From: Streptomyces agglomeratus
Lineage (GTDB): Bacteria > Actinomycetota > Actinomycetes > Streptomycetales > Streptomycetaceae
Assembly (NCBI RefSeq): GCF_001746415.1
Contig: NZ_MEHJ01000001.1
Span: 3,431,001-3,495,000 of the forward strand
Direction: 5' to 3'
Length of the DNA: 64,000 nt
Shown: positions 13,343 through 46,967 of the stretch, piece after piece
Layout: each line of letters begins with the position of its first letter
Numbering within the stretch: the first letter of the stretch is position 1
The notes under the pieces: generated by a model
The model's database searches: none
What the model was told of the DNA's origin: nothing
Seen by the model: the letters and a program-made list of their open reading frames with translations, nothing else
Program-made: the position numbers and the translations under genes

Positions 13343-13367
13343 GTCGGAAGCGGGGGTCCAGAGAAGA

Positions 13368-29868: not shown

Positions 29869-31377
29869 TTACTGGAAGAGATTGCCGGTGGCGAAGCGCA
29901 GTGCCAGCTGCGGTACGCCGGACAGGGCGATGCCCAGGACGGCGGTGAGAACGATGGCGAGGGTGACCGGCACGGGGACCGCGTGCTTCGGCTGCTCGCC
30001 CTCGGGGGCGCGGAAGAGGACCGCTGTCCACTTGAGGTAGTAGTAGAGGGCGATCACGACGTTGGCCGCCATGACGACCGCCAGCCAGCCGAGGCCCGCG
30101 TCGACCGCCGCGGAGAAGACGGTGACCTTGGCGAAGAGGCCGATGATGCCGGGCGGCAGGCCCGCGAGGCACAGGAGGAAGAAGCCCAGGGCGAGCGCCG
30201 CGAGGGGGCGGGTCGCGTAGAGGCCCCGGTAGTCGGCGATCCGGTTGAGCGGGTGCGTACGGGCGACCAGGGCGGCGACGGCGAACGCGCCCAGGTTCAC
30301 CACGGCGTACATCAGGGCGTACGCGACCGTGGAGCCGATCTGGTTGTCGCTGGAGTACGCCGCTGCCGCGATCGGGACCAGGATGTAGCCGGCCTGGCCC
30401 ACGGAGGACCAGGCGAGCAGGCGGACCGCGCTGTACGCGCGCGTGGCCGACTGGCGCAGGGCGGCCACATTGCCCACCGTCATGGTGAGCGCCGCCAGCA
30501 CGGCGATGGCCGGGCCCCATACGTCGGCGTACGACGGGAAGGCGATGACGGTGACCAGGATGAGGCCCGTGAAACCGACGGCCTTGCCGATCACCGAGAG
30601 GTAGGCGGCCACCGGGAGGGGTGCGCCGACATAGGTGTCCGGGACCCAGAAGTGGAAGGGGACCGCCGCCGTCTTGAAGGCGAAGCCGACGAGGGTCAGG
30701 GCGACGCCCGCCTTGGCGAGGGTGTCGAGCTGCGCCGGTACGTCGTCCAGGCGTACGGCGATCTCGGTGAGGTGCAGGGTGCCCGTCGTCGCGTACACGA
30801 AGCTGACTCCGAGCAGCATCACGGCGGTGGCCGTGACGGAGGAGAGGAAGAACTTCAGGGCCGCCTCGGAGGAGAGGCGGTCGCCGCGCTTCATGCCGAC
30901 CAGGGCGAAGGCCGGCAGCGACGCCACTTCGAGGGCCACGACGAGGGTGGCCAGGTCTCGGGAGGCGGGGAGCAGGGCGGCGCCCGCCGCCGATGACATG
31001 AGGAGGAACCAGAACTCGCCCGCGGGGAGCTTGTCCTTCGTCGTCTCGGTGACGGAGAGGAGGGCGGTGAGCAGCGCTCCGCCGAGTACCAGGAGCTGGA
31101 TGACCAGGGTGAAGTGGTCGGCCGTGTAGCTGCACACGTCGTTGTCGGCGGTCAGGCAGAAGGTGGAGCGGTCGCCGTCGAGGAGGGGCAGGAGGGCGAG
31201 GAGCGCCGCGGCCAGACCGGCGATGGAGAGCCGGCCCAGGAGCTGCTTCTTGTCCTCGGGTACGAAGAGGTCCGCAACCAGGACGATCAGGCCCACCGTC
31301 GCGGCGATCGTCGGCGGGGCGATCGCCGCCCAGTCGACGGACTGGACGAGGCTGGCGGTTTCGGCGGCCACGGTCAC
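29869..31377 (-). CDS. nuoN2: NADH-quinone oxidoreductase subunit N of the short nuo cluster (502 aa)
   Basis: Antiporter-like membrane subunit with about 14 helices. The catalytic Glu is in VVALEVASLPAFALVG. The Lys sites are in FKTAAVPFHFWVPDTYVGAP and SVIGKAVGF. GTG 31377 overlaps the nuoM stop (GTGA), which fixes the start although the frame is open far upstream through nuoM. It is the last gene of nuoABCHIJKLMN and, unlike the nuoN at the right edge of the window, belongs to the cluster without nuoDEFG. Proton-channel residues look intact. Confidence 0.93.
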   Translation of the reverse strand: MTVAAETASLVQSVDWAAIAPPTIAATVGLIVLVADLFVPEDKKQLLGRLSIAGLAAALLALLPLLDGDRSTFCLTADNDVCSYTADHFTLVIQLLVLGGALLTALLSVTETTKDKLPAGEFWFLLMSSAAGAALLPASRDLATLVVALEVASLPAFALVGMKRGDRLSSEAALKFFLSSVTATAVMLLGVSFVYATTGTLHLTEIAVRLDDVPAQLDTLAKAGVALTLVGFAFKTAAVPFHFWVPDTYVGAPLPVAAYLSVIGKAVGFTGLILVTVIAFPSYADVWGPAIAVLAALTMTVGNVAALRQSATRAYSAVRLLAWSSVGQAGYILVPIAAAAYSSDNQIGSTVAYALMYAVVNLGAFAVAALVARTHPLNRIADYRGLYATRPLAALALGFFLLCLAGLPPGIIGLFAKVTVFSAAVDAGLGWLAVVMAANVVIALYYYLKWTAVLFRAPEGEQPKHAVPVPVTLAIVLTAVLGIALSGVPQLALRFATGNLFQ

Positions 31378-32957
31378 GACTTGCCTCCTGCGAGGAGCTT
31401 CTGCACGGCCGGGTCGGTGAGGCCGAGGAGGACCGCGGGCCAGAGTCCGGCGAGGACGGTGAGGGCGACGAGGGGGGTCCAGGCGGCGAACTCGTAGCCC
31501 TGGACGTCGGCGATCGCCGCCGGCTCGGCCGCTTGCCGCTCGGGTACGCCCATGCAGACGCGGCGTACGACGACGAGCAGGTATGCGGCGGTCAGCAGGG
31601 TGCCGACGCCGGCGATCGCCATGAAGGTGAGGAAGGCGGGGCGGCTGAGGCCCTCGGCGGGGTCGAAGGCGCCGAACATCGTCAGCATCTCGCCCCAGAA
31701 GCCGGCGAGACCGGGGAGTCCGAGGGAGGCGACGGCCGCGAAGGCGAGGAGGCCGCCGAGGCGGGGGGCGCGGCCGTAGAGGGCCGCGCCGGTGGCGCCG
31801 GCGAGGGTGTCGAGGTCGGCGGTGCCGTAGCGGTCCTTGAGGGCGCCGACCAGGAAGAAGAGCAGGCCGGTGATCAGGCCGTGGGCGATGTTGGCGAAGA
31901 GCGCGCCGTTGACGCCGGTGGGGGTCATGGAGGCGATGCCGAGGAGTACGAAGCCCATGTGACCGACGGAGGAGTACGCGATCAGGCGCTTGAGGTCGCC
32001 CTTGGCTCCCTTGCGGGCCAGCGCGAGGCAGGCGAGGGAGCCGTAGATGATGCCGACGACCGCGAAGGCGGCGAGGTAGGGCGCGAACGTGCGCATGCCG
32101 TCGGGGGCGATGGGGAGTGCGATGCGGACGAATCCGTACGTACCCATCTTCAGCAGGACACCCGCGAGGAGGACCGAGCCGACGGTGGGGGCGGCGGTGT
32201 GGGCGTCGGGCAGCCAGCTGTGCAACGGCCACATCGGGGTTTTGACGGCGAGGCCGAGGCCGATCGCCAGAACGGCGATGACCTGCACGGATGTGGTCAG
32301 TCCACGGCCGTTGTCAGTGGCGAGTGCCACCATGTCGAACGTGCCCGACTGCAGTCCGATGAGGAGGAGACCGAGCAGCATCACGACGGAGCCGAGCAGC
32401 GTGTAGAGGATGAACCTCCAGGCGGCGGGCTGCCTCTGGTCGCCGCCCCACCGGGCGATGAGGAAGTACATCGGGATGAGGACCATCTCGAACGCCAGGA
32501 AGAAGAGCAGCAGGTCGAGGACGGCGAAGGTCGCGAGGGTGCCGGACTCCAGGACGAGGAGGAGCGCGACGAACGCCTTCGGGGAGGGGCCCGCGGGCAT
32601 CTTGGAGTAGCTGTAGAGCGCGCAGAGGAAGGTCAGCAGCGCGGTCAGGACGAGGAGGGGGAGCGAGATGCCGTCGATGCCGAGGTGGATCCTGACGTCG
32701 AGCGCCGGGATCCAGCTGATGTCGGTCGTGGCCTGCATCTTCGACGGGTGGTCGTGGTCGAAGCCCAGCGTGAGGACGACGGCCGCGATGAGGATCGCGG
32801 CGGTGACCGTCACGCCGTGGCGGAGCACGGCCTGGTCCGGGTTCTTGCCCTTCAGGCCGGGCGGGGCCGGGAGAAGGGCCGCGGCGGCGCCGAGGAGCGG
32901 GCCGACGACGATGAACGCCAGAAGGAACTGCATCACGGACGGGCTGATATCGATCAC
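31374..32957 (-). CDS. nuoM2: NADH-quinone oxidoreductase subunit M of the short cluster (527 aa)
   Basis: Antiporter-like subunit. The essential Glu is in FFLAFEMVLIPMYFLIARWGG. The Lys and His positions are in KTPMWPLHSWLPDAHTAAPT and GVLLKMGTYGFVRI. GTG 32957 lies three bases after the nuoL stop. About 14 membrane helices; normal family length. Conservation of all pumping residues argues that the module still moves protons. Confidence 0.94.
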   Translation of the reverse strand: MIDISPSVMQFLLAFIVVGPLLGAAAALLPAPPGLKGKNPDQAVLRHGVTVTAAILIAAVVLTLGFDHDHPSKMQATTDISWIPALDVRIHLGIDGISLPLLVLTALLTFLCALYSYSKMPAGPSPKAFVALLLVLESGTLATFAVLDLLLFFLAFEMVLIPMYFLIARWGGDQRQPAAWRFILYTLLGSVVMLLGLLLIGLQSGTFDMVALATDNGRGLTTSVQVIAVLAIGLGLAVKTPMWPLHSWLPDAHTAAPTVGSVLLAGVLLKMGTYGFVRIALPIAPDGMRTFAPYLAAFAVVGIIYGSLACLALARKGAKGDLKRLIAYSSVGHMGFVLLGIASMTPTGVNGALFANIAHGLITGLLFFLVGALKDRYGTADLDTLAGATGAALYGRAPRLGGLLAFAAVASLGLPGLAGFWGEMLTMFGAFDPAEGLSRPAFLTFMAIAGVGTLLTAAYLLVVVRRVCMGVPERQAAEPAAIADVQGYEFAAWTPLVALTVLAGLWPAVLLGLTDPAVQKLLAGGKS

Positions 32958-32960
32958 GGC

Positions 32961-34955
32961 TCACGCTCCGACGGCGGCGACGATGACGGCGGCGATCGCC
33001 AGGACGACGGAACCGGCGAGCAGGGCACTGAGGTAGGTCTGCACATTGCCGGTCTGGGCTCGGCGGACGACGGCGCCGAGGAGGCGCGGGACGGTGCCCG
33101 CACCGCGTACGTACGTCTCGACGACCTCGCGGTCCAGGAAGCGGACCAGCTCGGCGCCCGCCAGGACGGGCCGCACGAAGAGGGTGTGGTAGACGGCGTC
33201 GAGGTGGAAGCCGGCGGCGGCGTGCCGGTGCAGGGGGCCCAGCAGGAGCCGGCCGGGGTCGGCGGGGTCGGGGGCCGACGCGATGTCGCCGTAGGCGGGG
33301 GCGTGGGTGGCGATGGCCTCCGCCTCGGAGACGGCCGGGCTCTTTTCGGGGTGGGCGGCCACGGCGCCGATCGGGGGGCGGGCGGCCATGGCCGTGGTGT
33401 GGCGCCAGGCGCCGTACGTGACCAGTCCGCCGACGAGGGCGACGCCGGTGCCGAGGACCGCCGTGGTGACGGTCGGGGTGAGCGCGTGGCCGTCGAACCA
33501 GTCGTCGAGGTAGGTGACGGCGAGGCCGAAGGCGAGGGAGGGGACAGCGAGGACCCACAGGACGCCGTTCATGACGAGGGGCTGCTTGCCGTGATCCGGG
33601 GCGGCGGGGCCTCGGCCCCGGAAGGCCAGCAGCCACAGGCGGGTGGCGTACGCCGCCGTGAGGAGGGCGGTGAGCAGGCCCGCGACGAGCACGGTCAAGC
33701 CCGCACCGGAGGGGACGCCCGTGGTGTCGCCGAGCGAGGCGTGCTCGGCGGCGACGAGGACGGCTTCCTTGGAGAAGAAACCGGCGAACGGCGGGATCGC
33801 GGCGAGGGCGAACAGGGCGATCGTCATCGTCCAGTAGGCGTCGGGGATGCGCTTGGGCAGGCCGCTCATGCGGGACATGGCGGCCAGCGAGTTGGTACCG
33901 GCGGCGTGGATGATCACGCCGGCGCCGAGGAAGAGGAGCGCCTTGAAGGCGCCGTGGGAGATGAGGTGGAAGACGGCGGCGCCCCGGTCGCCGACGGCCA
34001 GTGCGCCGGTCATGTAGCCGAGCTGGCCGATCGTCGAGTACGCGAGGACGCGCTTGATGTCGTCCTGGGCGAGGGCGGCGAGGGCCGAGCCGACCATCGT
34101 GACGGCGGCCATCACGGCGAGGACGGTCAGGGCGGCGGCGGACGCGGCGAAGACGGGGAGGAGACGGGCCACGAAGTACACACCGGCGGCGACCATCGTC
34201 GCGGCGTGGATCAGCGCGGAGACGGGCGTGGGGCCCGCCATCGCGTCGGGCAGCCAGGTGTGCAGCGGGAACTGGGCCGACTTGCCCGCCACACCGGCGA
34301 GGAGCAGCAGCGCGATCAGCGTCGGGTGGTCGAGCCCGCCGCTGCCGACGGCGCCGAGGATGCCGGTGATCCGGAAGGTGCCGGCGTCGGCGGCGAGCGC
34401 GAAGAGGCCGAAGAGGAAGGGGACGTCGCCGAGCTTGGTGACCAGGAATGCCTTGAGGGAGGCGGCGCGCGCTTCGGGCGTCTCCCAGTAGTGGCCGACG
34501 AGGAAGTACGAGCAGATGCCCATGATCTCCCAGCCGACCAGCAGCACCATCAGGTCGCCGGAGTAGACGACGAGCAGCATCGCGGAGGTGAAGAGGGAGA
34601 CGAGAGCGGCGTACGAGGGGTAGCGCGGGTCGTCGCGCAGGTAGCCCGTCGAGTAGAGCTGCACGCAGGTGGCGACGACCCCGACCAGGACGGCGACGAG
34701 GACCGCGAAGCCGTCGAGGTGCAGGGCGAGGTCGATGGGGACCGAGCCGGTGGGGGTGAGCTGCGTCGACGCGTCGATCGCCCGGCCGCCGCCCTGGCGT
34801 ACGGCGACGATCACGGCCAGCACGGCGGCGGCGAGGGTCGGCAGTACGGCGAGGGGCCGGACGAATCCGGGTGCGGTGCGGCCGAGCAGCAGGCCGGCGG
34901 CGGCGCCGAGGAACGGGAGGAGGGGGACGAGGACGGCGAGGGTCGTGGTCGTCAC
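32961..34955 (-). CDS. nuoL2: NADH-quinone oxidoreductase subunit L of the short cluster (664 aa)
   Basis: Distal antiporter-like subunit. The Glu is in [19 protein letters not shown], and the Lys in [22 protein letters not shown]-terminal region (about 520-664) contains the long lateral helix and last membrane helix ([22 protein letters not shown]). GTG 34955 overlaps the nuoK stop by 4 bases (GTGA). The residues shared by all proton-translocating NuoL proteins are kept. Length is in the usual range. Confidence 0.94.
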
Positions 34956-35338
34956 GCGGCGGCCTCAGCCTTCTGTGCGGCCTCGTGTGCGGCCTTGTCT
35001 GCCATGGCGGAAGCCTCGTCGTCGGCGGTCCGGCCCTCGGCGGTGTCGCGCAGCTTGTCGATGTCCGAGGTGCCGCGGTTGCGGTAGACCATCAGGACGA
35101 TCGACAGGCCGATGCCGATCTCCGCCGCGGCGATGGCGATGGTGAACAAGGTCAGTGCCTGGCCGGCGTGGAGGGTGTCGCGCAGCCAGACGTCGAAGGC
35201 GACCAGGTTGAGGTTGACGGCGTTGAGCATCAGCTCGACGGACATCAGGACCAGGATCGCGTTGCGGCGCGCGAGCACTCCGTACAGCCCGGTGCAGAAG
35301 AGAAGGGCGGCGAGCACGGCGGGATAGGCGAGGTGCAT
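34952..35338 (-). CDS. nuoK2: NADH-quinone oxidoreductase subunit K of the short cluster (128 aa)
   Basis: Three-helix membrane subunit. Conserved membrane Glu residues are in [18 protein letters not shown] (about 35) and [18 protein letters not shown] (about 73). The first 100 residues are a standard NuoK. An extra charged tail (about 100-128, [20 protein letters not shown]) is not part of the usual protein. The ATG overlaps the nuoJ stop (TGATG). Confidence 0.94.
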
Positions 35339-35898
35339 CAGCGCTGCTCCTTGTCGCTGTCGCTCTTGCGGGAGAGGACGATGGCGCCGACGAGGGCGGC
35401 GAGCAGCAGGACCGAGAGCGCCTCGAAGGGCAGCACCCAGTGCTGGAAGAGGATCTCGCCGGTCACTTTGGTCGAGCCCTGGGACGGTCCGTCCAGGTCG
35501 ATCCACTGGGTGCGGAACGCGTCCACGACCACCCAGACGAGTGCGGCGGCCGCGGCGACGGCCACCGTGAGGGCGGCCCAGCGGTTGCCCGAGTCGGCGT
35601 CCGGGGAGCGGCCGATGGGGGCCTTGGTGAGCATCAGACCGAAGAGGAGGAGGACGACGACGGAGCCGACGTAGATCAGGACCTGGACCCAGGCGATGAA
35701 CTCGGCTGTGAGCAGGAGGTACTCGACGGAGAGGCCGCCGAGCGCGACGACCAGCCACAGGGCGGCGTGCACCAGCTGCTTGGTGGTGACGGTGACGACG
35801 GCCGCGCCGAGGGTGGCGATGCCGACGAGGACAAAGGCGATCTCGACGCCGGTCGGGGAGAGGAAGCCCTGCTCGGCGGCTGCGGCGAGGTGGCTCAT
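35338..35898 (-). CDS. nuoJ2: NADH-quinone oxidoreductase subunit J of the short cluster (186 aa)
   Basis: Membrane subunit with five helices. The signature segment [20 protein letters not shown] holds the pi-bulge helix with its Tyr/Gly pattern. ATG 35898 overlaps the nuoI stop (ATGA), fixing the start although the frame is open upstream. The central loop ([17 protein letters not shown]) and last helix are normal. Confidence 0.93.
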
Positions 35899-36521
35899 TC
35901 GGCGGGCCCCTCTTCTTCCTGCTGAGCTGCTTGTTCCTGGGCCGCCGGCTTCTGGGCCGCTTGTTCCTGTGCCGCCTGCTCCTGGGCCGCCTGTTCCTGG
36001 GCCGCGGCGAGCTTTTCGGCGGCCTTGCGGGCCGCCGCGAGCTCCTTGGGCTCCTCGGCGCCGGGGTCGAGCGCGGGCGGCTCGGGCACGGTCCACATCC
36101 ATTCGCGGAGCTTGTCCCGCTCGTGGGTGAGCTCGTGGATCTCGGTCTCGGCGTACTCGAACTCCGGGGACCAGAAGAGCGCGTCGAAGGGGCAGACCTC
36201 GATGCAGATACCGCAGTACATGCAGAGCGAGAAGTCGATCGCGAAGCGGTCGAGGACGTTGCGGCTGCGTTCGCGGCCGCCGGGGACTGCCGCCGGGACC
36301 GTCTCCTTGTGCGAGTCGATGTAGATGCACCAGTCGGGGCACTCGCGCGCGCAGAGCATGCAGACCGTGCAGTTCTCCTCGAAGAGGCCGATCACGCCGC
36401 GCGAGCGCGGCGGCAGTTCGGGCTGGACGTCCGGGTACTGCGCGGTGACGGTCTTCTTCGTCATCGTGCGCAGCGTGACGGCCAGGCCCTTGGCGAGGCC
36501 GGAGCCGGGGATCGGGGGCAT
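35895..36521 (-). CDS. nuoI2: NADH-quinone oxidoreductase subunit I (two [4Fe-4S]) of the short cluster (208 aa)
   Basis: Peripheral-arm subunit that carries clusters N6a and N6b. The cysteines are C51/C54/C57/C61 ([12 protein letters not shown]) and C100/C103/C106/C110 ([12 protein letters not shown]). The core ends near residue 160. After it comes an Ala/Gln/Glu-rich tail with repeated AAQEQ units (about 172-200), not part of the family. ATG 36521 overlaps the nuoH stop (TAATG). In the absence of nuoE/F/G this subunit is the likely electron entry point. Confidence 0.93.
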
Positions 36522-37489
36522 TACTGGATCGCCACCTTCACGATTCCGGTCAGCGCGATCTGCGCGAGAGCGAGTGGGATGAGTACGGTCCAGGCGAGCT
36601 TCTGGAGCTGGTCCTCGCGCAGCCGGGGGTAGGTCACGCGCAGCCAGATGACGCCGAAGGCGAGGATCGCGGTCTTCAACAGCGTCCAGACCCAGCCGAG
36701 GCCGTCCGCGCCCCAGGGGCCGTGCCAGCCGCCGAGGAACAGGACGGTGGTCAGGCCGCACAGGACGACGATTCCGGCGTACTCCGCGAGCAGGAACAGC
36801 GCGAAGCGCAGGCCCGTGTACTCGGTGTACGCGCCGAAGATGATCTCGGAGTCGGCGACCGGCATGTCGAAGGGCGGCCGCTGGAGTTCCGCGAGGCCGG
36901 CGACGAAGAACACGATCGCGCCGACGATCTGCCACGGCAGCCACCACCACTCGAAGGCGTTCAGGATGCCCGGCAGCGAGACGGTGCCGGCCGCCATCGC
37001 CACGGAGGCGGCGGCGAGCAGCATCGGCAGTTCGTACGCGAGGAGCTGGGCGGCGGTGCGCAGGCCGCCGAGCAGGGAGAACTTGTTGGCCGAGGCCCAG
37101 CCCGCCATCAGCGAGCCGAGCACGCCCACGCCCATGACGGCGAGCACGAAGAAGATGCCCGCGTCGATGACCTGGCCGACCGCGCCCTCGCTCGGGCCGA
37201 TCGGGATCGCGACGAGCACCAGGAGGTACGGGAGGAGCGCTACGGCGGGGGCGAGCTGGAAGATGCGGCGGTCGGCGTTGGCCGGGACGATGTCTTCCTT
37301 CTGCGCGAACTTCACGCCGTCGGCGACGAGCTGGGCCCAGCCGTGGAAGCCGCCCGCGTACATGGGGCCGAGGCGGCCCTGCATGTGTGCCATCACCTTG
37401 TGCTCGGTCTGCCCCACGACGAGGGGAAGGACCATGAACACGGCGAAGACGATGACCAGGCGCAGGGCGACATCGAGTACGTCGTTCAC
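36521..37489 (-). CDS. nuoH2: NADH-quinone oxidoreductase subunit H of the short cluster (322 aa)
   Basis: Membrane subunit that forms part of the quinone chamber and couples redox to pumping. Eight helices; the signature [21 protein letters not shown] (about 39-59) and [20 protein letters not shown] (about 205-225, with the conserved acidic loop) are present. GTG 37489 overlaps the nuoC stop (GTGA). In a full nuo operon nuoDEFG would lie between nuoC and nuoH. Here the two genes are directly fused by overlap, so nothing was lost by a local gap in the window. Confidence 0.94.
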
Positions 37490-38856
37490 GCGTCGTCGCT
37501 CCCTCGGTCCGGGGTGGGGCCGGTCGTGTCCTCGTCTGTGGAGCCGGCGGCCGGCCGGCCGGGCTCCTTCGCGGCGGCCGCGTCACCGCCCAGGGCTTCT
37601 TCGGCGGCCGCGTCGGCGGCTTCCGCCGCGTCGGCGTCGGTGTCGGCGGAAGCGCCCGTTCTGGTGGCGGCTTCCTTGCCCGGTTGCGTCTTCCGCCGCT
37701 TCTGCGGACCGGTCTCCGCCTGCGCGTCCTCGTCCTGGAAGGCGGGGCGTGCGTGGTGCCAGGGCGCGTCCGCGCTGCGCGCGGGCGGCGCGGGCGGTGC
37801 CGCCGGGGCGTCGGACCCGGCTTCGGCGGATGCCGCCGACGGTGTCGGGGCCTCCAGCTCGGGGGACGGCTCCGGCGCGGCTGCTGGGGTGGCTGTCGCG
37901 TCCGCCGCCGATGCGCCGGCGGCGGCCTGGCTCGCCGAGCCCTCGGCCGCGCTGCGGGTACGGCGCGGGGGCCTCGCCGGAGTGCCTTCCTCCGCCGGTG
38001 CGGCCGCCGGTGCGGCGGCTTCCGCCGCCTGGCTCGCCGAGCCCTCGCTCACGCTGCGGGCGCGGCGCGGGGGCCTCGGGGCGGTGCCTTCCGGTGCGGT
38101 GCCTTCCGGTGCGGTGCCTTCCGGTGCGGGGGTCGCCGCCTCCGCCGCCTGGGTCGCGGAGCCCTCGGCCACGCTGCGGGCGCGGCGCGGCGGACGGTCA
38201 CCTGCCGCACCTGCCGCACCTGCCGCACGCGGGGTGCGGGCGGGGCGGGCCGGCGCGGGCGGGAGCTGGCCCTTCAAGGGGCCCCACTCGTTCGGGTCCG
38301 GAACGCCCGGCGGCAGCATCTGGCGGCGCTTCGGCCCACCGTGGTCCGACTCCCCCGGCTCCTTCGCGCCCGGCCACGCCTTGGCGACCCGGGCCGCCAG
38401 GACGAAGTCCTTGCGCAGCGGATGTCCCTCGAAGCCCTCGGGCAGCAGGAGCGGAACCAGGTGCGGGTGGCCGGTGAAGTCGACACCGAACATCTCGTGC
38501 GTCTCACGCTCGTGCCACTGCGCGCCGGCGTAGACCTCGACGGCGGACGGTACGGCGGGCGCCGCGTGCGGAACGGTCGTGCGCAGCAGAAGGCGCCGTA
38601 CCGTACGGCCTTCGAGGGCGACGACGTGGGCGCACACGCGGAATCCCGTGCCCGGCTCGTCGACCGCGCTCAGCCAGTCGAAGTACGTGCAGCCCAGCTT
38701 GTCGCGCGCGATCTCCAGCGCCGCGATCCAGGAGCCGACCGGGACGTCGACGGTCAGCAGGTCGTAGCTGTGCTCGGCGGTCGCTTCCTCGCCGAAGATC
38801 TCGGTGACGGCGCCGGGCAGGGCGTCGTACGCCGTCGTGCGGTTCGCGTCGCTCAC
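37486..38856 (-). CDS. nuoC2: NADH-quinone oxidoreductase subunit C with long repeat-rich tail (456 aa)
   Basis: The NuoC core (30-kDa subunit) is about residues 1-190: [20 protein letters not shown], the [19 protein letters not shown] signature and [15 protein letters not shown]. The remaining 260 residues are disordered Ala/Pro/Glu with three copies of a [23 protein letters not shown] unit and three EGTAP repeats. There is no NuoD sequence in the tail, so it is not a NuoCD fusion. GTG 38856 overlaps the nuoB stop (GTGA). The tail is unlike any NuoC I know and may be fast-evolving linker. Confidence 0.9.
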
Positions 38857-39443
38857 TTCACGTCCTCCCCGGGGGCCGGCGGCGGAGTGACGAGTCCGCT
38901 GCGCAGCGCCGCGGTGGACGGCCGGCTGCCGTGGCCGTAGCGCTCGCTCAGCGACTCGCGGGCGATCTTCTCCTGGAGCTTGAGGATGCCCTGGAGCAGG
39001 GCCTCGGGCCGCGGCGGGCAGCCCGGTACGTACACGTCGACCGGGATGATCTGGTCGACGCCCTTCGTCACGGAGTACGAGTCCCAGTAGGGGCCGCCGC
39101 AGTTGGAGCAGGCGCCGAAGGAGATGACGTACTTCGGCTCGGGCATCTGCTCGTACAGCCGCTTGACGGCCGGGGCCATCTTGTCCGTGACCGTGCCGGA
39201 GACGACCATCAGGTCGGCCTGGCGCGGTCCCGGCGCGAAGGGGATCACGCCGAGCCGGATGAAGTCGTGGCGCGCCATCGACGCGGCGATGAACTCGATC
39301 GCGCAGCAGGCGAGACCGAAGTTGAAGACCCACAGGCTGTAGCGGCGACCCCAGTTCAGGACCACCTTCATGGGCTCCGGTGCGAGGCGGGCGAGAGCTC
39401 CCAGGCGCTTGGGCTCGGGGAGGTCGACAGGGGTCACGTCCAT
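38853..39443 (-). CDS. nuoB2: NADH-quinone oxidoreductase subunit B (N2 cluster) of the short cluster (196 aa)
   Basis: Carries the terminal [4Fe-4S] cluster N2 that reduces quinone. The ligands are C46/C47 (LACCAIEF), C112 ([11 protein letters not shown]) and C142 ([10 protein letters not shown]), all present. C115 is an extra cysteine. ATG 39443 overlaps the nuoA end by 10 bases; a GTG at 39437 (GTGA overlap) is an alternative start. The C-terminal 25 residues are a Pro/Gly-rich extension. Confidence 0.94.
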
Positions 39444-39826
39444 TCGAGGACGCCCTTCTTCCATGCGTACAGCAGTCCCACGGCCAGGAAGCCGAGGAAG
39501 ATGAACATCTCGACCAGCGTCGTCGCGCCGTACTCCGGCGCGGCGAAGACCGTCGCCCAGGGGAAGAGGAAGATCGAGTCGACGGCGAAGATCACGTACA
39601 GGAAGGCGTAGACGTAGTAACGGACCTGCGTGTGCGCCCAGCCCTCTCCGACCGGGTCCACGCCGCATTCGTACGTCAGCAGCTTCTCCGGCGTCGGCAC
39701 GACCGGCCGCAGCAGTCGCCCGGCCCCGAAGGCCACGGCGACGAAGAGGACGCCGATGACTGCGAGCAGTCCGACGACCGAGTAACTCTGGAAGTACCCG
39801 TCCGCGAGAACCGTCGGTTCCGGCAC
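39434..39826 (-). CDS. nuoA2: NADH-quinone oxidoreductase subunit A of the short cluster (130 aa)
   Basis: Three-helix membrane subunit and first gene of the operon. GTG 39826 ([20 protein letters not shown]) has AGAGGGG ahead. The conserved loop is [24 protein letters not shown], and the second helix has [15 protein letters not shown] with its Glu/Asp pattern. The loop Cys that shields the quinone site is present (YECG). Confidence 0.94.
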
Positions 39827-39893
39827 GTCCGCCCCTCTCGCTCCCTGGCTGCGTCGGCCACATCGGCCGCGTTCGACGATCTGTACGCACGGG

Positions 39894-39921
39894 AGTCTAG
39901 GCCCTGGTAAAGACCCGGTAA
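39894..39921 (-). promoter_or_regulatory. Possible nuoA2 promoter
   Basis: Minus-strand TTACCG (39921-39916), 16 bases, TAGACT (39899-39894). The spacer is one short and the -35 box is weak. It is the best candidate in the gap shared with the divergent sensor-kinase gene. Confidence 0.35.
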
Positions 39922-40014
39922 GCAGCCGTCTCACGCAGGGGTGGGGTTATCCCTACTTCCGCGCACCCAGTTACCCCATGGCATCCCTCGCCGGCGCCCG
40001 GCAGGGTGAGCGTC

Positions 40015-41379
40015 ATGACCGCCAGCGCCAGCGACCACATCCCAGATTACGACCGGTCAGACCGGCCGGAGGGCCCGTCCGGCCCACCCGGCCCGTCCGG
40101 CACGCCCGAGCTGTCGGGCGGGCCGCGGACCCGCCCCCCGGCCCGGCCCGAGCCCGTCCGCTTCCCGTACGGCTCCGGCACCTGGAAGGAGATCGCGCAT
40201 CTCCTCCTCAACCTGCCGATGGCTCTCATCGGCTTCGTGTTCGTCGTGGTGGCTCTCGTCCTCGGGGGCGGCCTCTCGGTCACGGTGATCGGCCTGCCCG
40301 TGGTGGTGGCGGGGCTGTTGGGGGCGCGCCTGCTCGGCGCGGTCGAGCGGGCGCGGGCACGCGCGCTGCTCCGCCTGTACGTCGACGAGCCGAGCCCGGC
40401 GGCCGCGGGACGGCCGGGCGGCTTCCTCCCGTGGCTGTGGAACGGCCTGAAGGATCCGGTGGGCTGGCGGACGGCGCTGTTCGCGTTCATCCGGCTGCCG
40501 TGGGGGGTGCTCACCTTCGCCGTCACGTTGACCGGGCTCTTCGTGCTGTGGCCGGTGCTGCCGTACCTCGCGCGGGCGATGACCAATGCCGACCGGGCGA
40601 TGGTGCGCGGTCTGCTCTGTCCCTCCGGCGAACTGGAGAGGCGCATCGCCGAGCTGGAGGTGGACCGGGGCGTCGTCGTCGACACCGCGGCCGCCGACCT
40701 GCGGCGCATCGAACGCGACCTGCACGACGGGGCCCAGGCCAGGCTCGTGGCGCTCGCCATGGGGCTCGGCATGGCGAAGGAGAAGCTGACCGGCGACTTC
40801 AAGGACCCGGTCGCCGCCGCGGCGATGATCGGCGAGGCGCACGGCGAGGTGAAGCTGGCCTTGCAGGAGCTGCGCGACCTTGCGCGCGGCATCCACCCCG
40901 CCGTGCTGACCGACCGAGGTCTGGACGCGGCGCTCTCGTCGATCGCGTCGCGCTGCACGGTTCCGGTGCGGGTGAGCGTCGACCTGACGGAACGTCCGGC
41001 CGAGGCGATCGAGGGCATCGCGTACTTCACGGTCTCCGAGCTGCTCCAGAACGTCAGCAAGCACAGCGGCGCGCGGTCCGCGTCGGTGGATGTGCGGCGC
41101 GGCGGCAAACGCCTGCTGATCCGGGTGCGGGACGACGGGCGGGGCGGCGCGCGGCTGGACGGTGGTACGGGCATGGCCGGTCTGGCCGACCGGCTCGGTG
41201 CGGTGGACGGCCTGTTCGCCGTCGACTCCCCGGTGGGCGGGCCGACCACGGTGACGGGCGAACTGCCGTGGCGGGGCCGCCACAGGACTCCCGGAGCGCC
41301 GGCGAGGGCCGGGAGTACGGACAAGGGTGTGGCCAAGCGCGACGCCGGGGTGGGGAAAACCCCCGGTCGTAAACGGTGA
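40015..41379 (+). CDS. Two-component sensor histidine kinase, NarL-partner type, copy 1 (454 aa)
   Basis: Membrane sensor kinase. A Pro/Gly-rich N-terminus (1-45) precedes a sensor domain with about four hydrophobic helices (LLLNLPMALIGFVFVVVALV; VTVIGLPVVVAGLLGARLL; LTFAVTLTGLFVLWPVLPYL). The HisKA_3 helix has ERDLHDGAQARLVALAM, where the His is phosphorylated. The ATPase domain has ELLQNVSKHS and DDGRGGARLDGGTGMAGL. ATG 40015 is taken; GTG 40006 is possible. It is followed by a paralogue and one response regulator, and is divergent from the nuo cluster, which makes respiration genes a plausible target. Confidence 0.88.
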   Translation: MTASASDHIPDYDRSDRPEGPSGPPGPSGTPELSGGPRTRPPARPEPVRFPYGSGTWKEIAHLLLNLPMALIGFVFVVVALVLGGGLSVTVIGLPVVVAGLLGARLLGAVERARARALLRLYVDEPSPAAAGRPGGFLPWLWNGLKDPVGWRTALFAFIRLPWGVLTFAVTLTGLFVLWPVLPYLARAMTNADRAMVRGLLCPSGELERRIAELEVDRGVVVDTAAADLRRIERDLHDGAQARLVALAMGLGMAKEKLTGDFKDPVAAAAMIGEAHGEVKLALQELRDLARGIHPAVLTDRGLDAALSSIASRCTVPVRVSVDLTERPAEAIEGIAYFTVSELLQNVSKHSGARSASVDVRRGGKRLLIRVRDDGRGGARLDGGTGMAGLADRLGAVDGLFAVDSPVGGPTTVTGELPWRGRHRTPGAPARAGSTDKGVAKRDAGVGKTPGRKR

Positions 41380-41469: not shown

Positions 41470-42816
41470 ATGGCCACGGAGTACGCACCGCAGACCCGGG
41501 ACCAGTGGGCTCCCCAGGGCCGGCCCCCGAGGAGGCACGTCCTTCCCCCCGCGCTGCGCGCGCCGATCGAGGCCCGGACCTGGCGCGAGTTCGGCTACCT
41601 GATGCTCAGCCTGCCGATCAGCGTGCTGCTCTTCGTCTTCGCGGTCACGATGACGTCGCTGGGCATGGGCCTGCTGATCACCTTCCTCGGCGTACCGGTA
41701 CTGGCGTTGTGCCTGGCCGGCTGCCGCGGTCTCGGGGCGATGGAACGGGCCCGCGCCAGGGTGCTGCTCAAACTGGACGTGGCGGACCCGGCGCCCGTAC
41801 GGCCCAAGCCGGGCGGCGGCCCGATGTCCTGGATGGGCGCGATGCTCAAGAGCGGGACGTCCTGGCGGCATCTGCTGTACGCCGTCCTGCACATGCCGTG
41901 GGCGGTGTTCGCGTTCAGTGTGTCGCTGACCTTCTGGTCGTACGGCTGGGCGATGCTCACGTATCCGCTGTGGCAGTGGACGTTCCCGGTCTATGCCGGA
42001 GTCGACGGACTTCAGCTGTACGGCGACAGCACGCACAACGTCTACCTCGACAGCCCCGTCGAACTGGGCCTTACCGGCGCGGTCGGCCTGCTCCTCACCC
42101 TCGCCACCCCGTGGCTCATCCGCGGCCTGGCGGCCGCGGACCGGGTGATGGTGGCCGGGCTGCTCGGCCCGTCGAGGCTCGCCACCCGCGTCTCCGAGCT
42201 GGAGTCGGACCGGGGCGTCGTCGTCGACACGGCGGCCGCCGACCTGCGGCGCATCGAACGCGACCTGCACGACGGGGCCCAGGCCAGGCTCGTCGCCCTC
42301 GCCATGGACCTGGGCCTGGCCAAGGAGAAGCTGACGGACGACCCGGAGGCCGCGGCGCGCATGGTGGACGAGGCGCACGGCGAGGTGAAGATCGCCCTTC
42401 AGGAACTGCGGGACCTGGCCCGCGGCATCCACCCGGCGGTCCTCACCGACCGCGGGCTGGACGCGGCGCTCTCGGCGGTGGCCTCCCGGTGCACGGTGCC
42501 GGTGCGGGTCGAGGTGGACCTTCCGGCGCGGCCGGCCCCGGCCATCGAGGGCATCGCGTACTTCACCGTCTCGGAGCTGCTCCAGAACGTCAGCAAGCAC
42601 GCACGGGCCTCCCGGGCCACGGTCGAGGTGTGGCAGACGGCGGACCGGCTGATGCTCCAGGTGAGCGACGACGGGCAGGGCGGGGCGGACACAACGGCCG
42701 GCTCGGGCCTGGCGGGGCTCGCGGAGCGGCTCGACGCGGTCGACGGAATCCTGGTCGTCGACTCCCCGGCGGGCGGCCCGACCACCGTTACGGCGGAGCT
42801 GCCCTGGCGCGGCTGA
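41470..42816 (+). CDS. Two-component sensor histidine kinase, copy 2 (448 aa)
   Basis: Paralogue of the preceding gene with the same layout: N-terminal sensor domain with helices, HisKA_3 ERDLHDGAQARLVALAMDLG, and HATPase LLQNVSKHARASRA and DDGQGGADTTAGSGLAGL. The sensor part differs from copy 1 (an extra extracytoplasmic stretch LQLYGDSTHNVYLDSPVELG), so it probably senses a different signal. 87 bases around the phospho-His (42207-42293) match 40662-40748 with a single difference. ATG 41470 is chosen; an upstream TTG (41434) has no better support. Ends at hairpin 42871. Confidence 0.88.
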   Translation: MATEYAPQTRDQWAPQGRPPRRHVLPPALRAPIEARTWREFGYLMLSLPISVLLFVFAVTMTSLGMGLLITFLGVPVLALCLAGCRGLGAMERARARVLLKLDVADPAPVRPKPGGGPMSWMGAMLKSGTSWRHLLYAVLHMPWAVFAFSVSLTFWSYGWAMLTYPLWQWTFPVYAGVDGLQLYGDSTHNVYLDSPVELGLTGAVGLLLTLATPWLIRGLAAADRVMVAGLLGPSRLATRVSELESDRGVVVDTAAADLRRIERDLHDGAQARLVALAMDLGLAKEKLTDDPEAAARMVDEAHGEVKIALQELRDLARGIHPAVLTDRGLDAALSAVASRCTVPVRVEVDLPARPAPAIEGIAYFTVSELLQNVSKHARASRATVEVWQTADRLMLQVSDDGQGGADTTAGSGLAGLAERLDAVDGILVVDSPAGGPTTVTAELPWRG

Positions 42817-42901: not shown

Positions 42902-43030
42902 GCCCGCTCCCCCGATCCCCTGAGAGTCGTACACCACGAATCCCCGCACCCGGCCGCACATCAGTCCGGTTCCTGGGATGCTGGGTCCGACGTTACGGGG
43001 AGAGATCAATTACTGGGGGGCTGCGGGGCC

Positions 43031-43702
43031 GTGGGAGACAGAGTGCGGGTCGTCATCGCCGAGGATTCAGTGTTGCTGCGGGAGGGCCTGACGCGGCTTC
43101 TGACCGACCTCGGACACGATGTCGTCGCGGGCGTCGGGGACGGAGAAGCCCTGATCAAGACCGTCGGCGACCTGGCGTCGCAGGGCGAACTGCCGGACGT
43201 GGTGGTGGCGGACGTACGGATGCCTCCGACCCACACCGACGAGGGCGTGCGGGCGGCGGTGCGGCTGCGCAAGGAGTACCCCGGAATCGGCGTACTGGTG
43301 CTCTCGCAGTACGTCGAGGAGCAGTACGCGACGGAGCTGCTGGCCGGGTCGAGCCGGGGCGTCGGTTATCTGCTGAAGGACCGGGTGGCGGAAGTACGCG
43401 AATTCGTGGACGCCGTCCTCCGGGTGGCCCAGGGCGGGACCGCGCTCGATCCCGAGGTCGTGGCGCAGCTGCTGGGCCGTAGCCGCAAGCAGGACGTCCT
43501 GGCCCGGCTGACGCCGCGCGAGCGGGAGGTCCTGGGCCTCATGGCCGAAGGACGGACGAACTCGGCGGTCGCCAGGCAACTGGTGGTGAGCGACGGCGCG
43601 GTCGAGAAGCACGTCAGCAACATCTTCCTTAAGCTCGGACTCGCGCCGAGTGAAGGTGATCACCGGCGGGTGCTGGCGGTGCTGACCTACCTCAATACGT
43701 GA
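43031..43702 (+). CDS. NarL/LuxR-type response regulator (223 aa)
   Basis: Receiver domain with acidic pocket (VVIAEDSVLLREGL) and phospho-Asp in VVVADVRMPPTHTDEG (about residue 60), Thr/Ser and Lys positions VLVLSQYVE and GYLLKDRV. The C-terminal LuxR DNA-binding domain has LTPREREVLGLMAEGRTNSA, AVEKHVSNIFLKLGL. GTG 43031. It is the only regulator next to the two kinases, so both may signal to it. Confidence 0.92.
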   Translation: MGDRVRVVIAEDSVLLREGLTRLLTDLGHDVVAGVGDGEALIKTVGDLASQGELPDVVVADVRMPPTHTDEGVRAAVRLRKEYPGIGVLVLSQYVEEQYATELLAGSSRGVGYLLKDRVAEVREFVDAVLRVAQGGTALDPEVVAQLLGRSRKQDVLARLTPREREVLGLMAEGRTNSAVARQLVVSDGAVEKHVSNIFLKLGLAPSEGDHRRVLAVLTYLNT

Positions 43703-43957
43703 CATGAGCACCTGAGCGCCTGAAGGCGATACCAGCGAGACACCCGTAACACGTAATCCGAGGATGAGCACAGAGCGTAATCGATCAGAAGCCGGGGGGC
43801 TGGCGAATCGTGACAAAACAGGGCAGCAGAGCGTCTCAAAACGGGGTCCACTATGTGACTGCTCCAGGGAAGGAGACCCTTACCGACGTAGGGTGGGCCC
43901 TGGGGCCACCGCTGGCCGGCCGGCCCCGAGCAGCCGCCTCGAGGGAGGTCCAGTTCA

Positions 43958-45925
43958 GTGACCAGCCAGGTCAGTAGCCCGGCCGAGAAGGCCGACGGAA
44001 CCGATGGTGCCGACGGAGCGAGTGACACCGTCGTCGGGGAACAGCGCAGCACGCCGAGCGGGAAGGTCTCCGAGAAGGAGGTCCGCCGGCTGGACCGGGT
44101 GATCATCCGTTTCGCGGGCGACTCCGGTGACGGAATGCAGCTCACGGGAGACCGCTTCACTTCCGAGACGGCGACCTTCGGAAACGATCTTTCGACGCTG
44201 CCCAACTTCCCGGCCGAGATCCGGGCGCCCGCCGGCACTCTGCCGGGTGTGTCCAGCTTCCAGCTGCACTTCGCCGACCACGACATCCTGACGCCGGGCG
44301 ACGCGCCCAACGTCCTGGTGGCCATGAACCCGGCCGCGCTGAAGGCGAACATCGGGGACGTGCCGCGCGGCGCCGACATCATCGTCAACACCGACGAGTT
44401 CACCAAGCGCCCGATGGCGAAGGTCGGCTACGAGACCTCTCCGCTGGAGGACGGCTCGCTGGAGGCGTACAACGTCCATCCGGTGCCGCTGACCACGATG
44501 ACGATCGAGGCGCTCAAGGAATTCGGCCTGTCCCGGAAGGAGGCCGAGCGCTCCAAGAACATGTTCGCGCTCGGACTGCTGTCGTGGATGTACCACCGGC
44601 CGACCGAGGGCACCGAGAACTTCCTGCGCACGAAGTTCGCCAAGAAGCCCGAGATCGCCGAGGCGAACGTCGCGGCGTTCCGGGCCGGCTGGAACTTCGG
44701 CGAGACGACCGAGGACTTCGCGGTCTCGTACGAGGTCGCCCCGGCGACCCGTGCGTTCCCCCCGGGGGCGTACCGCAACATCTCCGGGAACCTGGCCCTG
44801 TCGTACGGGCTGATCGCCGCCGGTCAGCAGGCGGACCTGCCGCTCTACCTGGGCTCGTACCCGATCACGCCGGCGTCCGACATCCTGCACGAGCTGAGCC
44901 GGCACAAGAACTTCGGCGTGCGGACCTTCCAGGCCGAGGACGAGATCGCGGCCATCGGCGCGGCGCTCGGCGCCGCGTTCGGCGGACAGCTCGCCGTCAC
45001 CACCACCTCGGGTCCGGGTGTGGCGCTCAAGTCGGAGACCATCGGGCTGGCGGTGTCGCTGGAGCTGCCGCTCCTGGTGGTCGCCATCCAGCGCGGCGGA
45101 CCGTCGACCGGCCTGCCGACCAAGACGGAGCAGGCCGACCTGCTCCAGGCGATGTACGGGCGCAACGGCGAGGCCCCGGTGCCGATCGTCGCGCCGCGCA
45201 CCCCCGCCGACTGCTTCGACGCGGCCATGGACGCGGCGCGGATCGCGCTGACCTACCGGACGCCGGTGTTCCTGCTGTCCGACGGCTACCTGGCCAACGG
45301 CAGCGAGCCGTGGCGGATCCCGGAGATCGACGAGCTGCCGGACCTGCGGGTGCAGTTCGCGACCGGGCCGAACCACGAGCTCGCCGACGGCACCGAGGTC
45401 TTCTGGCCGTACAAGCGCGACCCGCAGACCCTGGCCCGCCCGTGGGCCGTGCCCGGTACGCCCGGTCTCGAACACCGCATCGGCGGCATCGAGAAGCAGG
45501 ACGGCACGGGCAACATCTCGTACGACCCGGCCAACCACGACTTCATGGTCCGCACCCGCCAGGCCAAGGTCGACGGCATCGAGGTCCCGGACCTGGAGGT
45601 CGACGACCCGGACCAGGCCAGGACCCTGGTGCTGGGCTGGGGCTCGACGTACGGACCGATCACGGCCGCCGTACGCCGGCTGCGTGCCGCCGGGACGCCC
45701 ATCGCACAGGCGCACCTGCGCCATCTCAACCCGTTCCCCCGGAATCTGGGCGAAGTCCTGGGGCGCTACGACAAGGTGGTCGTGCCCGAGATGAACCTCG
45801 GACAGCTGGCCACCCTGCTCAGAGCGAAGTATCTGGTCGACGCCCACTCGTACAACCAGGTCAACGGCATGCCGTTCAAGGCCGAGCAGCTGGCCACGGC
45901 TCTCAAGGAGGCCACCCATGACTGA
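43958..45925 (+). CDS. korA: 2-oxoacid:ferredoxin oxidoreductase, fused gamma-alpha subunit (655 aa)
   Basis: Half of a thiamine-diphosphate enzyme that oxidatively decarboxylates a 2-oxoacid (2-oxoglutarate in the mycobacterial homologue) to acyl-CoA and reduces ferredoxin. The gamma domain (about 45-220) shows IRFAGDSGDGMQLTGDRF. The alpha domain (about 270-640) shows YPITPASDILHEL, QAEDEIAAIGAALGAAFGG and TTTSGPGVALKSETIGLAV. GTG 43958 follows GAGGGAGGT. Operon with korB (8-base overlap). The enzyme supplies an alternative, NAD-independent step of the TCA cycle. Confidence 0.94.
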   Translation: MTSQVSSPAEKADGTDGADGASDTVVGEQRSTPSGKVSEKEVRRLDRVIIRFAGDSGDGMQLTGDRFTSETATFGNDLSTLPNFPAEIRAPAGTLPGVSSFQLHFADHDILTPGDAPNVLVAMNPAALKANIGDVPRGADIIVNTDEFTKRPMAKVGYETSPLEDGSLEAYNVHPVPLTTMTIEALKEFGLSRKEAERSKNMFALGLLSWMYHRPTEGTENFLRTKFAKKPEIAEANVAAFRAGWNFGETTEDFAVSYEVAPATRAFPPGAYRNISGNLALSYGLIAAGQQADLPLYLGSYPITPASDILHELSRHKNFGVRTFQAEDEIAAIGAALGAAFGGQLAVTTTSGPGVALKSETIGLAVSLELPLLVVAIQRGGPSTGLPTKTEQADLLQAMYGRNGEAPVPIVAPRTPADCFDAAMDAARIALTYRTPVFLLSDGYLANGSEPWRIPEIDELPDLRVQFATGPNHELADGTEVFWPYKRDPQTLARPWAVPGTPGLEHRIGGIEKQDGTGNISYDPANHDFMVRTRQAKVDGIEVPDLEVDDPDQARTLVLGWGSTYGPITAAVRRLRAAGTPIAQAHLRHLNPFPRNLGEVLGRYDKVVVPEMNLGQLATLLRAKYLVDAHSYNQVNGMPFKAEQLATALKEATHD

Positions 45926-46967
45926 GGCGCTCTCGCTGGTGCCCAAGGCCGAGGCCAAGCAGTCCATGAAGGACTTCAAGTCCGATCAGGAAGTGCGCTG
46001 GTGCCCCGGATGCGGCGACTACGCGGTCCTCGCCGCCGTGCAGGGCTTCATGCCCGAGCTCGGACTGGCGAAGGAGAACATCGTCTTCGTCTCCGGGATC
46101 GGCTGCTCGTCCCGCTTCCCGTACTACATGAACACGTACGGCATGCACTCGATCCACGGCCGCGCGCCCGCGATCGCGACCGGCCTCGCGTCCTCGCGGC
46201 GTGACCTGAGCGTGTGGGTGGTGACCGGTGACGGCGACGCGCTGTCCATCGGCGGCAACCACCTGATCCACGCGCTGCGGCGCAACGTCAACCTGAAGAT
46301 CCTGCTGTTCAACAACCGGATCTACGGGCTGACCAAGGGCCAGTACAGCCCCACCTCCGAGATCGGCAAGATCACCAAGTCGACGCCGATGGGCTCGCTC
46401 GACGCGCCCTTCAACCCGGTGTCGCTGGCGATCGGCGCGGAGGCGAGTTTCGTCGCCCGTACGGTCGACTCCGACCGCAAGCACCTCACCGAGGTGCTGC
46501 GGCAGGCCGCCGACCACCCCGGCACGGCGCTGGTGGAGATCTATCAGAACTGCAACATCTTCAACGACGGCGCGTTCGACGCCCTGAAGGACAAGCAGCA
46601 GGCCGAGGAGGCCGTGATCCGGCTGGAGCACGGGCAGCCGATCCGCTTCGGTGCCGAGGGGTCGAAGGGCGTCGTACGGGACGCGGCGACCGGAGATCTC
46701 AAGGTGGTGGCGGTGACCGCCGAGAACGAGTCGCAGATCCTGGTCCACGACGCACACGCGGCGTCGCCCACGACGGCCTTCGCGCTCTCGCGCCTCGCGG
46801 ATCCGGACACGCTGCACCACACCCCCATCGGGGTGCTGCGCAGCGTCGACCGCCCGGTCTACGACACTCTGATGGCCGACCAGCTCGATGCCGCCATCGA
46901 GCAGAACGGCAAGGGCGACCTCGCGGCGCTGCTGGCGGGCAACGACACGTGGACGGTCGTCGGCTGA
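45918..46967 (+). CDS. korB: 2-oxoacid:ferredoxin oxidoreductase, beta subunit (349 aa)
   Basis: Binds thiamine diphosphate and one [4Fe-4S]. The cluster cysteines are C29 and C32 (RWCPGCGDY), C63 (SGIGCSSRF) and that in EIYQNCNIFNDG. The TPP-Mg motif is GDGDALSIGGNHLIHALRRN followed by NNRIYGLTKGQYSPTS. It starts within the korA end. The last bases and stop are perfectly duplicated (46958-46985) and then a 17-bp-stem terminator ends the operon. Confidence 0.95.
   Translation: MTEALSLVPKAEAKQSMKDFKSDQEVRWCPGCGDYAVLAAVQGFMPELGLAKENIVFVSGIGCSSRFPYYMNTYGMHSIHGRAPAIATGLASSRRDLSVWVVTGDGDALSIGGNHLIHALRRNVNLKILLFNNRIYGLTKGQYSPTSEIGKITKSTPMGSLDAPFNPVSLAIGAEASFVARTVDSDRKHLTEVLRQAADHPGTALVEIYQNCNIFNDGAFDALKDKQQAEEAVIRLEHGQPIRFGAEGSKGVVRDAATGDLKVVAVTAENESQILVHDAHAASPTTAFALSRLADPDTLHHTPIGVLRSVDRPVYDTLMADQLDAAIEQNGKGDLAALLAGNDTWTVVG

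Follow-up and report, generated by a model that had tools for sequence, protein, structure and literature searches.

The window analysed here, a stretch of 64,000 nucleotides in the 9.1-Mb genome of Streptomyces agglomeratus (contig NZ_MEHJ01000001.1, positions 3,431,001 to 3,495,000), carries ten complex I genes on its minus strand at 29869-39826, in the order nuoA2-B2-C2-H2-I2-J2-K2-L2-M2-N2. It is quite likely that these genes, the nuo2 cluster, are ten of the eleven that specify a complex I without the NADH-input module (N-module), that the eleventh, nuoD2, has been relocated, and that the electron donor, the proton pump, the part played by the methyltransferase MidA and the losses of the membrane arm in relatives are as proposed below.

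Gene content and the eleventh subunit

Each of the ten genes was assigned to its subunit by an NCBIfam model match, and all ten reading frames are open in the window. With the starts as chosen, eight of the nine joints are overlaps (10, 4, 4, 4, 4, 1, 4 and 4 bases) and the L2/M2 joint is a 3-base gap; an earlier reading of this DNA from its letters (the sequence-only reading) had described the genes as joined by 1-10 base overlaps or a 3-base gap, and the re-measured joints agree. The gene coordinates also bear out its observation that nuoC2 overlaps nuoH2 directly, at the slot where nuoD-G would be expected. NCBIfam typing of the open reading frames in the window likewise upholds its statement that the cluster has no E/F/G input module: genes for NuoE, F and G were not found in nuo2 and are found in nuo1, a complete 14-gene nuo operon that starts at the right edge of the window and runs outward (L003, C1:3495001-3512000).

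The lack of a nuoD, which the sequence-only reading regarded as a puzzle, is true of the cluster but not of the genome. The search it had recommended for an unlinked nuoD, made with the 49-kDa family, turned up nuoD2 at C1:3653193-3654335, 182 kb from nuoA2, and gives a genome total of two nuoD genes, this one and that of the nuo1 operon.

Loci from other classes of the phylum point to where nuoD2 came from. Nineteen were read there; 14 of these hold a NuoD of the NuoD2 clade, and 12 of the 14 have a contiguous operon, A-B-C-D-H-I-J-K-L-M-N, in which nuoD2 stands between nuoC2 and nuoH2. Thus the window cluster is best understood as an 11-subunit, N-module-less complex I whose nuoD2 has been relocated. 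The nuoN end of a further nuo operon immediately precedes the contiguous nuo2 in L129, L130, L131, L134, L142 and L144, and midA follows nuoN2 in L134, L135 and L144; L136 and L143 have nuoD2 and midA in the stretch without nuo2 genes. When the tree of NuoD is rooted on NuoD1, the NuoD2 proteins of the window's class form one clade among the contiguous type (Shimodaira-Hasegawa-like approximate likelihood ratio test, SH-aLRT, 100). NuoD2 rows G137, G157, G047 and G194 (very long) were left out of this tree and of the topology tests below, nine same-genus rows were left out of all NuoD2 trees, and the labels full, reduced and contiguous were assigned by gene content. The simplest history would be that nuoD2 moved out of the operon before or at the base of the class.

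Conserved clusters and an altered quinone cavity

Alignment shows that the Fe-S cysteines of the window NuoB2 (cluster N2) and NuoI2 (N6a/N6b) are kept, as the sequence-only reading had said. Its companion claim, that the pumping residues are all kept, stands for NuoK, L, M and N, where the Glu, Lys and His residues tested are present at what we take to be the E. coli position numbers, except for a conservative change of Asp400 to Glu in NuoL. The claim is wrong for NuoH2, which has Val at E. coli Glu216 and His at Arg37.

The NuoH change is a property of the family. At position 216 all 49 further rows from the class (some genomes appear twice, and one fragment lacking the site is uncounted) and all 12 contiguous-type rows from other classes have Val or Ile; E. 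coli, five of five nuo1 rows and five of five other NuoH rows have Glu. A second substitution affects the quinone Tyr of NuoD, which is Trp in all 47 class NuoD2 rows of the residue alignment, from which rows below 36% identity were left out, and in all 14 NuoD2-clade rows from other classes; five rows outside the clade have Tyr, as does NuoD1 of the window genome. The quinone-site His of NuoD2 is kept while the Tyr is replaced; in the large reduced clade described below, 16 of 20 rows retain the second His of the HPxxH loop. Against the FpoD model NuoD2 scores 306, the cut-off being 600.

Past the first Fe-S motif of NuoI2 (35895-36524) stands an additional Cys (CPDWC). The nuo2-type rows of the alignment share a Cys at this site, and the nuo1-type row does not.

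MidA as a candidate maturation factor for NuoD2

A methyltransferase gene, midA, adjoins nuoD2 on the same strand in the window genome. Its product matches PF02636 (64.3 bits, cut-off 23.3), which we take to be the family of MidA and NDUFAF7; the model search gave no NCBIfam match for it, and it has one solved relative, 1zkd.

The distribution of the two genes was surveyed in 197 genomes of the class, which are related and are not independent samples; nuoH2 was scored positive at 61% identity or more to the window protein, and counts are among the matches listed, where a weak NuoD2 may be missed. On these terms nuoH2 occurs in 53 genomes, nuoD2 in 86 and midA in 85. Fifty-one of the 53 nuoH2 genomes have nuoD2, the two without it (G014 and G108) being 72 and 80% complete, and all 53 have midA (some as partial matches) compared with 32 of the 144 genomes without nuoH2. 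The two genes occur together in 78 genomes, nuoD2 alone in eight and midA alone in seven, where a weak NuoD2 may have escaped listing.

Proximity follows a similar pattern. Of 20 nuoD2 loci fetched outside the window's genus, 19 have midA on the same strand within the stretch and the twentieth has it about 11 kb off, and midA lies within the stretch in 9 of 14 more distant nuoD2 loci. Within the genus, nuoD2 and midA share a contig and lie within 8 kb of each other in 16 genomes, on the same strand in four and on opposite strands in 12; a universal midA-nuoD2 operon is thereby rejected.

The available passages of PMC3829151 describe NDUFAF7 as dimethylating Arg85 of NDUFS2, the mitochondrial homologue of NuoD. 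The target peptide given there (...HIGLLHR) aligns with HRGAEKL of NuoD2, and all 47 class NuoD2 rows have an Arg at the target position. This Arg, the co-occurrence of midA with nuoD2 and their closeness on the chromosome suggest that MidA probably methylates NuoD2 or helps to assemble it, as NDUFAF7 does for NDUFS2. The likeness to that pair lies in the PF02636-type methyltransferase and the aligned Arg; the differences are that methylation by the bacterial MidA is a prediction, that midA adjoins nuoD2 and that NuoD1 of the window genome has Thr at the target position.

Some smaller features of these loci may be recorded. In five nuoD2 loci from genomes with no midA match, the residue after the target Arg is Ser (L113, L118, L120) or Gly (L107, L119); L117, which has midA, likewise has Ser in place of Gly. 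Just upstream of nuoD2 in L004 (9380-9880) is a stretch of about 120 bases that appears by eye to hold some three repeats.

Loss of the membrane arm

Among the matches listed, 35 class genomes have nuoD2 without nuoH2. The expectation that nuoD2 goes when nuoH2 goes was therefore rejected, and these genomes led to a reduced form of the cluster. Thirty-four reduced loci were read: 32 from those 35 genomes, and L095 (G042) and L155 (G023), whose genomes are 85 and 80% complete and have no nuoD2 among the matches listed. Loci of G070, G097 and G190 lie outside the 34. In 32 of the 34, nuoB2, nuoC2 and nuoI2 are present without nuoA, H or J-N of their own; L088 holds nuoB2 and nuoC2 before its contig end, and L089 (G030; 12547-16079) holds nuoA2, nuoB2, a fragmented nuoH2 and nuoI2, with no nuoC2 match and no nuoJ-N. 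In G030, membrane-arm loss is apparently in progress. The lack of nuoH2 scored for G070 may be an assembly gap, since this genome is 91% complete and its nuoB2, which stands beside korA, is of the full type.

The genes htpX and yajQ follow in many reduced loci, as they do behind the full cluster, so the two forms occupy the same chromosomal place. Genome-wide, 31 of the 35 genomes have one NuoH match, G011 has two, G030 five including fragments, and G060 and G097, which are 78 and 77% complete, none. In one genus, NuoL2 is present at 60-61% identity in G087 and G141, and no match exceeds 39% in G161 (one contig) or G016.

What remains has kept its electron-carrying residues. In the alignment, which took in 24 of the 34 loci, every one of the 24 reduced NuoB2 has the four N2 cysteines and every one of the 23 reduced NuoI2 has all eight of its own. 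The amphipathic N-terminus of NuoI2 behaves differently. Scored against the window peptide, with the more distant contiguous type as control, it reaches at least 56 in 19 of 19 full clusters and at least 51 in 12 of 12 contiguous operons but at most 25 in 21 of 23 reduced loci. The exceptions, L087 (38) and L089 (101), belong to two other, shallower losses of the membrane arm.

The reduced form is nested inside the full form in the NuoD2 trees and in the NuoB+C+I tree. Approximately unbiased (AU) tests, run after the first tree had been inspected, gave p 0.0017 when the NuoD2 of genomes lacking nuoH2 were held to a single clade and p 0.0001 when the full-cluster type was; both constraints were rejected. 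Three losses can be counted in the NuoD2 tree and two in the NuoB+C+I tree, which lacks G030. Together, the trees and the rejections suggest at least three separate losses of the membrane arm, the oldest of which also took the NuoI amphipathic N-terminus. The history would then run from a contiguous A-N operon without E, F and G, through the departure of nuoD2 no later than the class base, to at least three losses of the arm that left B, I, usually C and the unlinked D2.

The reduced form thus looks like a soluble quinone module (Q-module) under selection. A wider proposal, advanced tentatively and at somewhat less than even odds, is that at least three actinobacterial lineages have freed the Q-module (NuoB, NuoI, usually NuoC and the unlinked NuoD) to act as a soluble Fe-S enzyme, in many cases linked to the 2-oxoacid oxidoreductase KorAB, driven by 2-oxoacid or ferredoxin and passing electrons to an acceptor on the cytosol side. 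With the cavity changes, the native acceptor of the nuo2 family would possibly not be ordinary menaquinone, and pumping would be optional.

In L148-L151, L154 and L157, where no korAB is adjacent, at most a few genes separate the nuoBCI remnant from the nuoN of nuo1 that precedes it. A gene that looks by eye like a polyprenyl diphosphate synthase stands between the two in L148 and L150.

Electron input and alternative explanations

In the mechanism that we favour for the window complex, reduced ferredoxin, or KorAB directly, would donate to the two [4Fe-4S] clusters of NuoI2; electrons would pass to N2 in NuoB2, whose ligands are conserved, and from there to a quinone-type acceptor in an altered cavity between NuoB2, NuoD2 and NuoH2, where the substitutions would make their effect felt. 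The membrane arm (NuoA, H, J-N), having kept the residues described above, would pump protons.

The identity of the donor is the part of this scheme with the closest competitor: a generic ferredoxin:quinone pump for which any ferredoxin would serve as donor, the proximity of korAB being inherited synteny and no sign of partnership. The gene korA is found in 157 of the 197 class genomes, so its co-presence with nuo2 says little; co-presence was set aside as a test of partnership and adjacency was used instead. By that measure 33 of the 53 nuoH2 genomes have korA no more than 15 kb from nuoH2 (in the others it is far off on the same contig in one, on other contigs in 13, and in six there is none among the rows listed), and 20 of the 34 reduced loci have it beside them, with both subunits in 18; these arrangements recur across many families, which argues against mere synteny. 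Fragments of korA stand beside a further reduced locus (L153). On the other side, korAB was not found in the 12 contiguous nuo2 loci fetched from other classes, and is absent beside 13 of the 34 reduced loci, one of them (L155) near a contig end. The co-occurrence of nuo2 with korAB, by which the sequence-only reading wanted its proposal checked, therefore holds as frequent adjacency; as co-presence it is uninformative, and the contiguous form does without korAB. The model for the ferredoxin-like delta subunit of 2-oxoacid oxidoreductases (TIGR02179) matches, below its cut-off, both the window NuoI2 and a reduced one, which would fit direct transfer from KorAB, and no delta-subunit gene lies beside korAB in the window. 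KorAB is accordingly seen as a frequent and not an obligatory partner: a likely electron source for nuo2, as far as gene arrangement can tell. The any-ferredoxin pump is nonetheless a serious contender, falling only a little short of an even chance.

A suggestion made for S. coelicolor in PMC9239103, in the part available, is that of a hybrid, in which nuo2 subunits would be isoforms able to replace their counterparts in the complete NADH-driven enzyme. It gains from the two operons being neighbours, and from the several genomes without a membrane arm in which nuoBCI2 is right behind nuo1. It is made improbable by the completeness of nuo2 itself, which with NuoD2 counted has its own Q-module and membrane arm and is a self-contained 11-gene operon in other classes. 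NuoD2 and NuoH2, moreover, share family-wide changes missing from nuo1; NuoB, I and usually C stay with NuoD2 after H and J-N are lost; and the NuoI2 of the large reduced clade, without its N-terminal amphipathic part, is a misfit for docking on the nuo1 arm. Decay is a far weaker candidate still. The fragmented nuoH2 of G030 and the other genomes without a membrane arm could be taken as signs of a relic, but the window has ten open frames with the tested functional residues kept, and S. coelicolor nuo2 has been reported, in the accessible parts of the literature, as one transcribed operon with its proteins detected; that nuo2 is a decaying relic is scarcely credible. The remaining alternative, from the sequence-only reading, is that the two-component system encoded beside nuo2 switches the module. 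The divergent region common to the kinases and nuo2 in streptomycetes favours it. Window-like kinase and regulator genes are, however, found at none of 32 loci outside Streptomycetaceae, and what could be consulted of the published work names the system AbrC, a regulator of antibiotic production; switching of nuo2 by it is unlikely.

Several observations weigh against the N-module-less complex proposed here, beside the wide occurrence and patchy adjacency of korA given above, which weaken the case for KorAB. The Arg at the NDUFAF7-target position is present also in the NuoD of other complex I types (L137-L141), so that by itself it is no pointer to MidA, and it was rejected as a NuoD2-specific mark. 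One genome, G190 (L105), is an exception to the association, with nuoD2 and midA yet one NuoB and one NuoH match genome-wide; either its nuoD2 lacks partners or the assembly has a gap. The trees all come from quick searches, and the reduced forms sit on long branches in them. In the NuoB+C+I tree, built without L070, L078, L086, L088, L100, L125, ten reduced loci and L089 (no nuoC2), the class is not one clade and there is an open fork with L069. L143, from another family, also has nuoD2 outside the operon, so nuoD2 may have moved more than once and not in a single step at the class base. Given the two cavity substitutions, the quinone site may be a poor one or of another kind, and ferredoxin input, menaquinone output and pumping are inferred from genes.

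Relation to known systems

The nuo2 cluster itself is known. From the passages available, PMC3765725 and PMC8388888 already state that Streptomyces has a nuo2 with a separate nuoD2, and PMC9239103 calls its function unclear. The SCO4599-4608 cluster with separate nuoD2 of these three papers is the same as that of the window, the SCO numbers being theirs and the match being by description. In those passages function is left open or a hybrid is suggested, and MidA, the cavity changes, a contiguous ancestor and the arm-less form do not appear. The closest likeness is to the 11-subunit enzyme of Desulfitobacterium (nuoABCDHIJKLMN; PMC11238625, in part), for which a model with a ferredoxin-type donor has been proposed and which lacks NuoE, F and G and has all the other core subunits. 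Unlike that enzyme, as far as the accessible text describes it, the nuo2 family has an unlinked nuoD2 in the window's class, Trp for the quinone Tyr, Val or Ile for NuoH Glu216, MidA nearby, korAB often adjacent and a membrane arm that is dispensable in relatives. The 14-subunit nuo1 has a Q-module and membrane arm homologous to those of nuo2; it differs in having NuoE, F and G, and Tyr and Glu at the two changed positions. The word Streptomyces does not occur in the main text, as available, of a survey of complex I variants (PMC12361115). A literature search with most subscription journals outside its scope found nothing on the arm-less form, on a bacterial MidA-nuoD2 link or on the cavity changes; as far as searched, these, the contiguous ancestor and the repetition of arm loss are new.

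An annotated and unexplained streptomycete operon may thus become a defined 11-subunit machine, with its eleventh subunit, a candidate assembly factor and site residues that can be tested. The arm-less relatives are a natural experiment on complex I. Kept without the pump are the ligands of N6a, N6b and N2, mostly NuoC, NuoD and MidA; NuoH, J-N, the NuoI N-terminus and, in most cases, NuoA go with it. A Q-module that did work alone would bear directly on the way in which electron transfer came to be coupled to pumping, and on the acceptor for KorAB-type enzymes in aerobic actinobacteria.

Neighbouring genes and variant loci

Table 1. Positions in the window of the nuo2 genes and the features that flank them
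Feature	Position	Strand	Basis and remarks
htpX	28861..29724	-	behind nuo2 or its nuoBCI remnant in many fetched loci
nuoN2	29869..31377	-	NCBIfam; Glu133, Lys217, Lys247, Lys395 kept
nuoM2	31374..32957	-	NCBIfam; Glu144, Lys234, Lys265, Glu407 kept
nuoL2	32961..34955	-	NCBIfam; Glu144, Lys229, His254, His338, Lys342, Lys399 kept
nuoK2	34952..35338	-	NCBIfam; Glu36, Glu72 kept
nuoJ2	35338..35898	-	NCBIfam
nuoI2	35895..36524	-	NCBIfam; eight Fe-S cysteines kept
nuoH2	36521..37489	-	NCBIfam; Val at E. coli Glu216 position, His at Arg37 position
nuoC2	37486..38856	-	NCBIfam; long Ala/Pro/Arg/Ser-rich C-terminal tail
nuoB2	38853..39443	-	NCBIfam; four N2-cluster cysteines kept
nuoA2	39434..39826	-	NCBIfam; GTG start picked by overlap
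divergent promoter region, nuoA2/kinase genes	39827..40014	.	open reading frame map
sensor histidine kinase 1	40015..41379	+	'Sensor' domain; AbrC1-like by position, name from S. coelicolor papers
sensor histidine kinase 2	41470..42816	+	'Sensor' domain
LuxR-type response regulator	43031..43702	+	domain search
korA, 2-oxoacid:acceptor oxidoreductase alpha subunit	43958..45925	+	TIGR03710, 661 bits, cut-off 483
korB, beta subunit	45918..46967	+	TIGR02177, 247 bits, below cut-off 262

The two kinases, the regulator and korAB are divergent from nuo2, in the positions that the sequence-only reading gave them (Table 1). The available sources identify the kinase/regulator set as the AbrC1/2/3 system, known for control of antibiotic production. 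Likeness to the window genes (at least 50% identity for the kinases and 70% for the regulator) was counted in the best 80 loci, 79 with nuoH2 and one cut by its contig, over stretches of 10 kb each side. Window-like genes occur together with korA in 36 of 48 Streptomycetaceae loci compared with none of the 32 elsewhere, 22 of which have korA; the kinases of L080 are related to them, at 49-52% identity. The core nuo2 module does not include the set.

According to the part of PMC5355995 available, Rex controls nuo1. A search of the whole window for the Rex-operator motif with up to three mismatches gave no matches against 0.21 expected by chance, and a Rex operator in the window was rejected.

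The tail of the window NuoC2 (37486-38391) has about 300 Ala/Pro/Arg/Ser-rich residues past the NuoC domain, and NuoC2 proteins from loci outside the genus are shorter. In L076 (7588-9063) a Ser/Thr protein kinase gene is inserted between nuoH2 and nuoI2, and in L073 about 5 kb is inserted between nuoB2 and nuoC2 and also between nuoH2 and nuoI2. In L081 (8085-13957; G022) the korAB slot beside nuoA2 is taken by a NuoF-like protein, followed by the large and small subunits of RuBisCO and an AAA protein.

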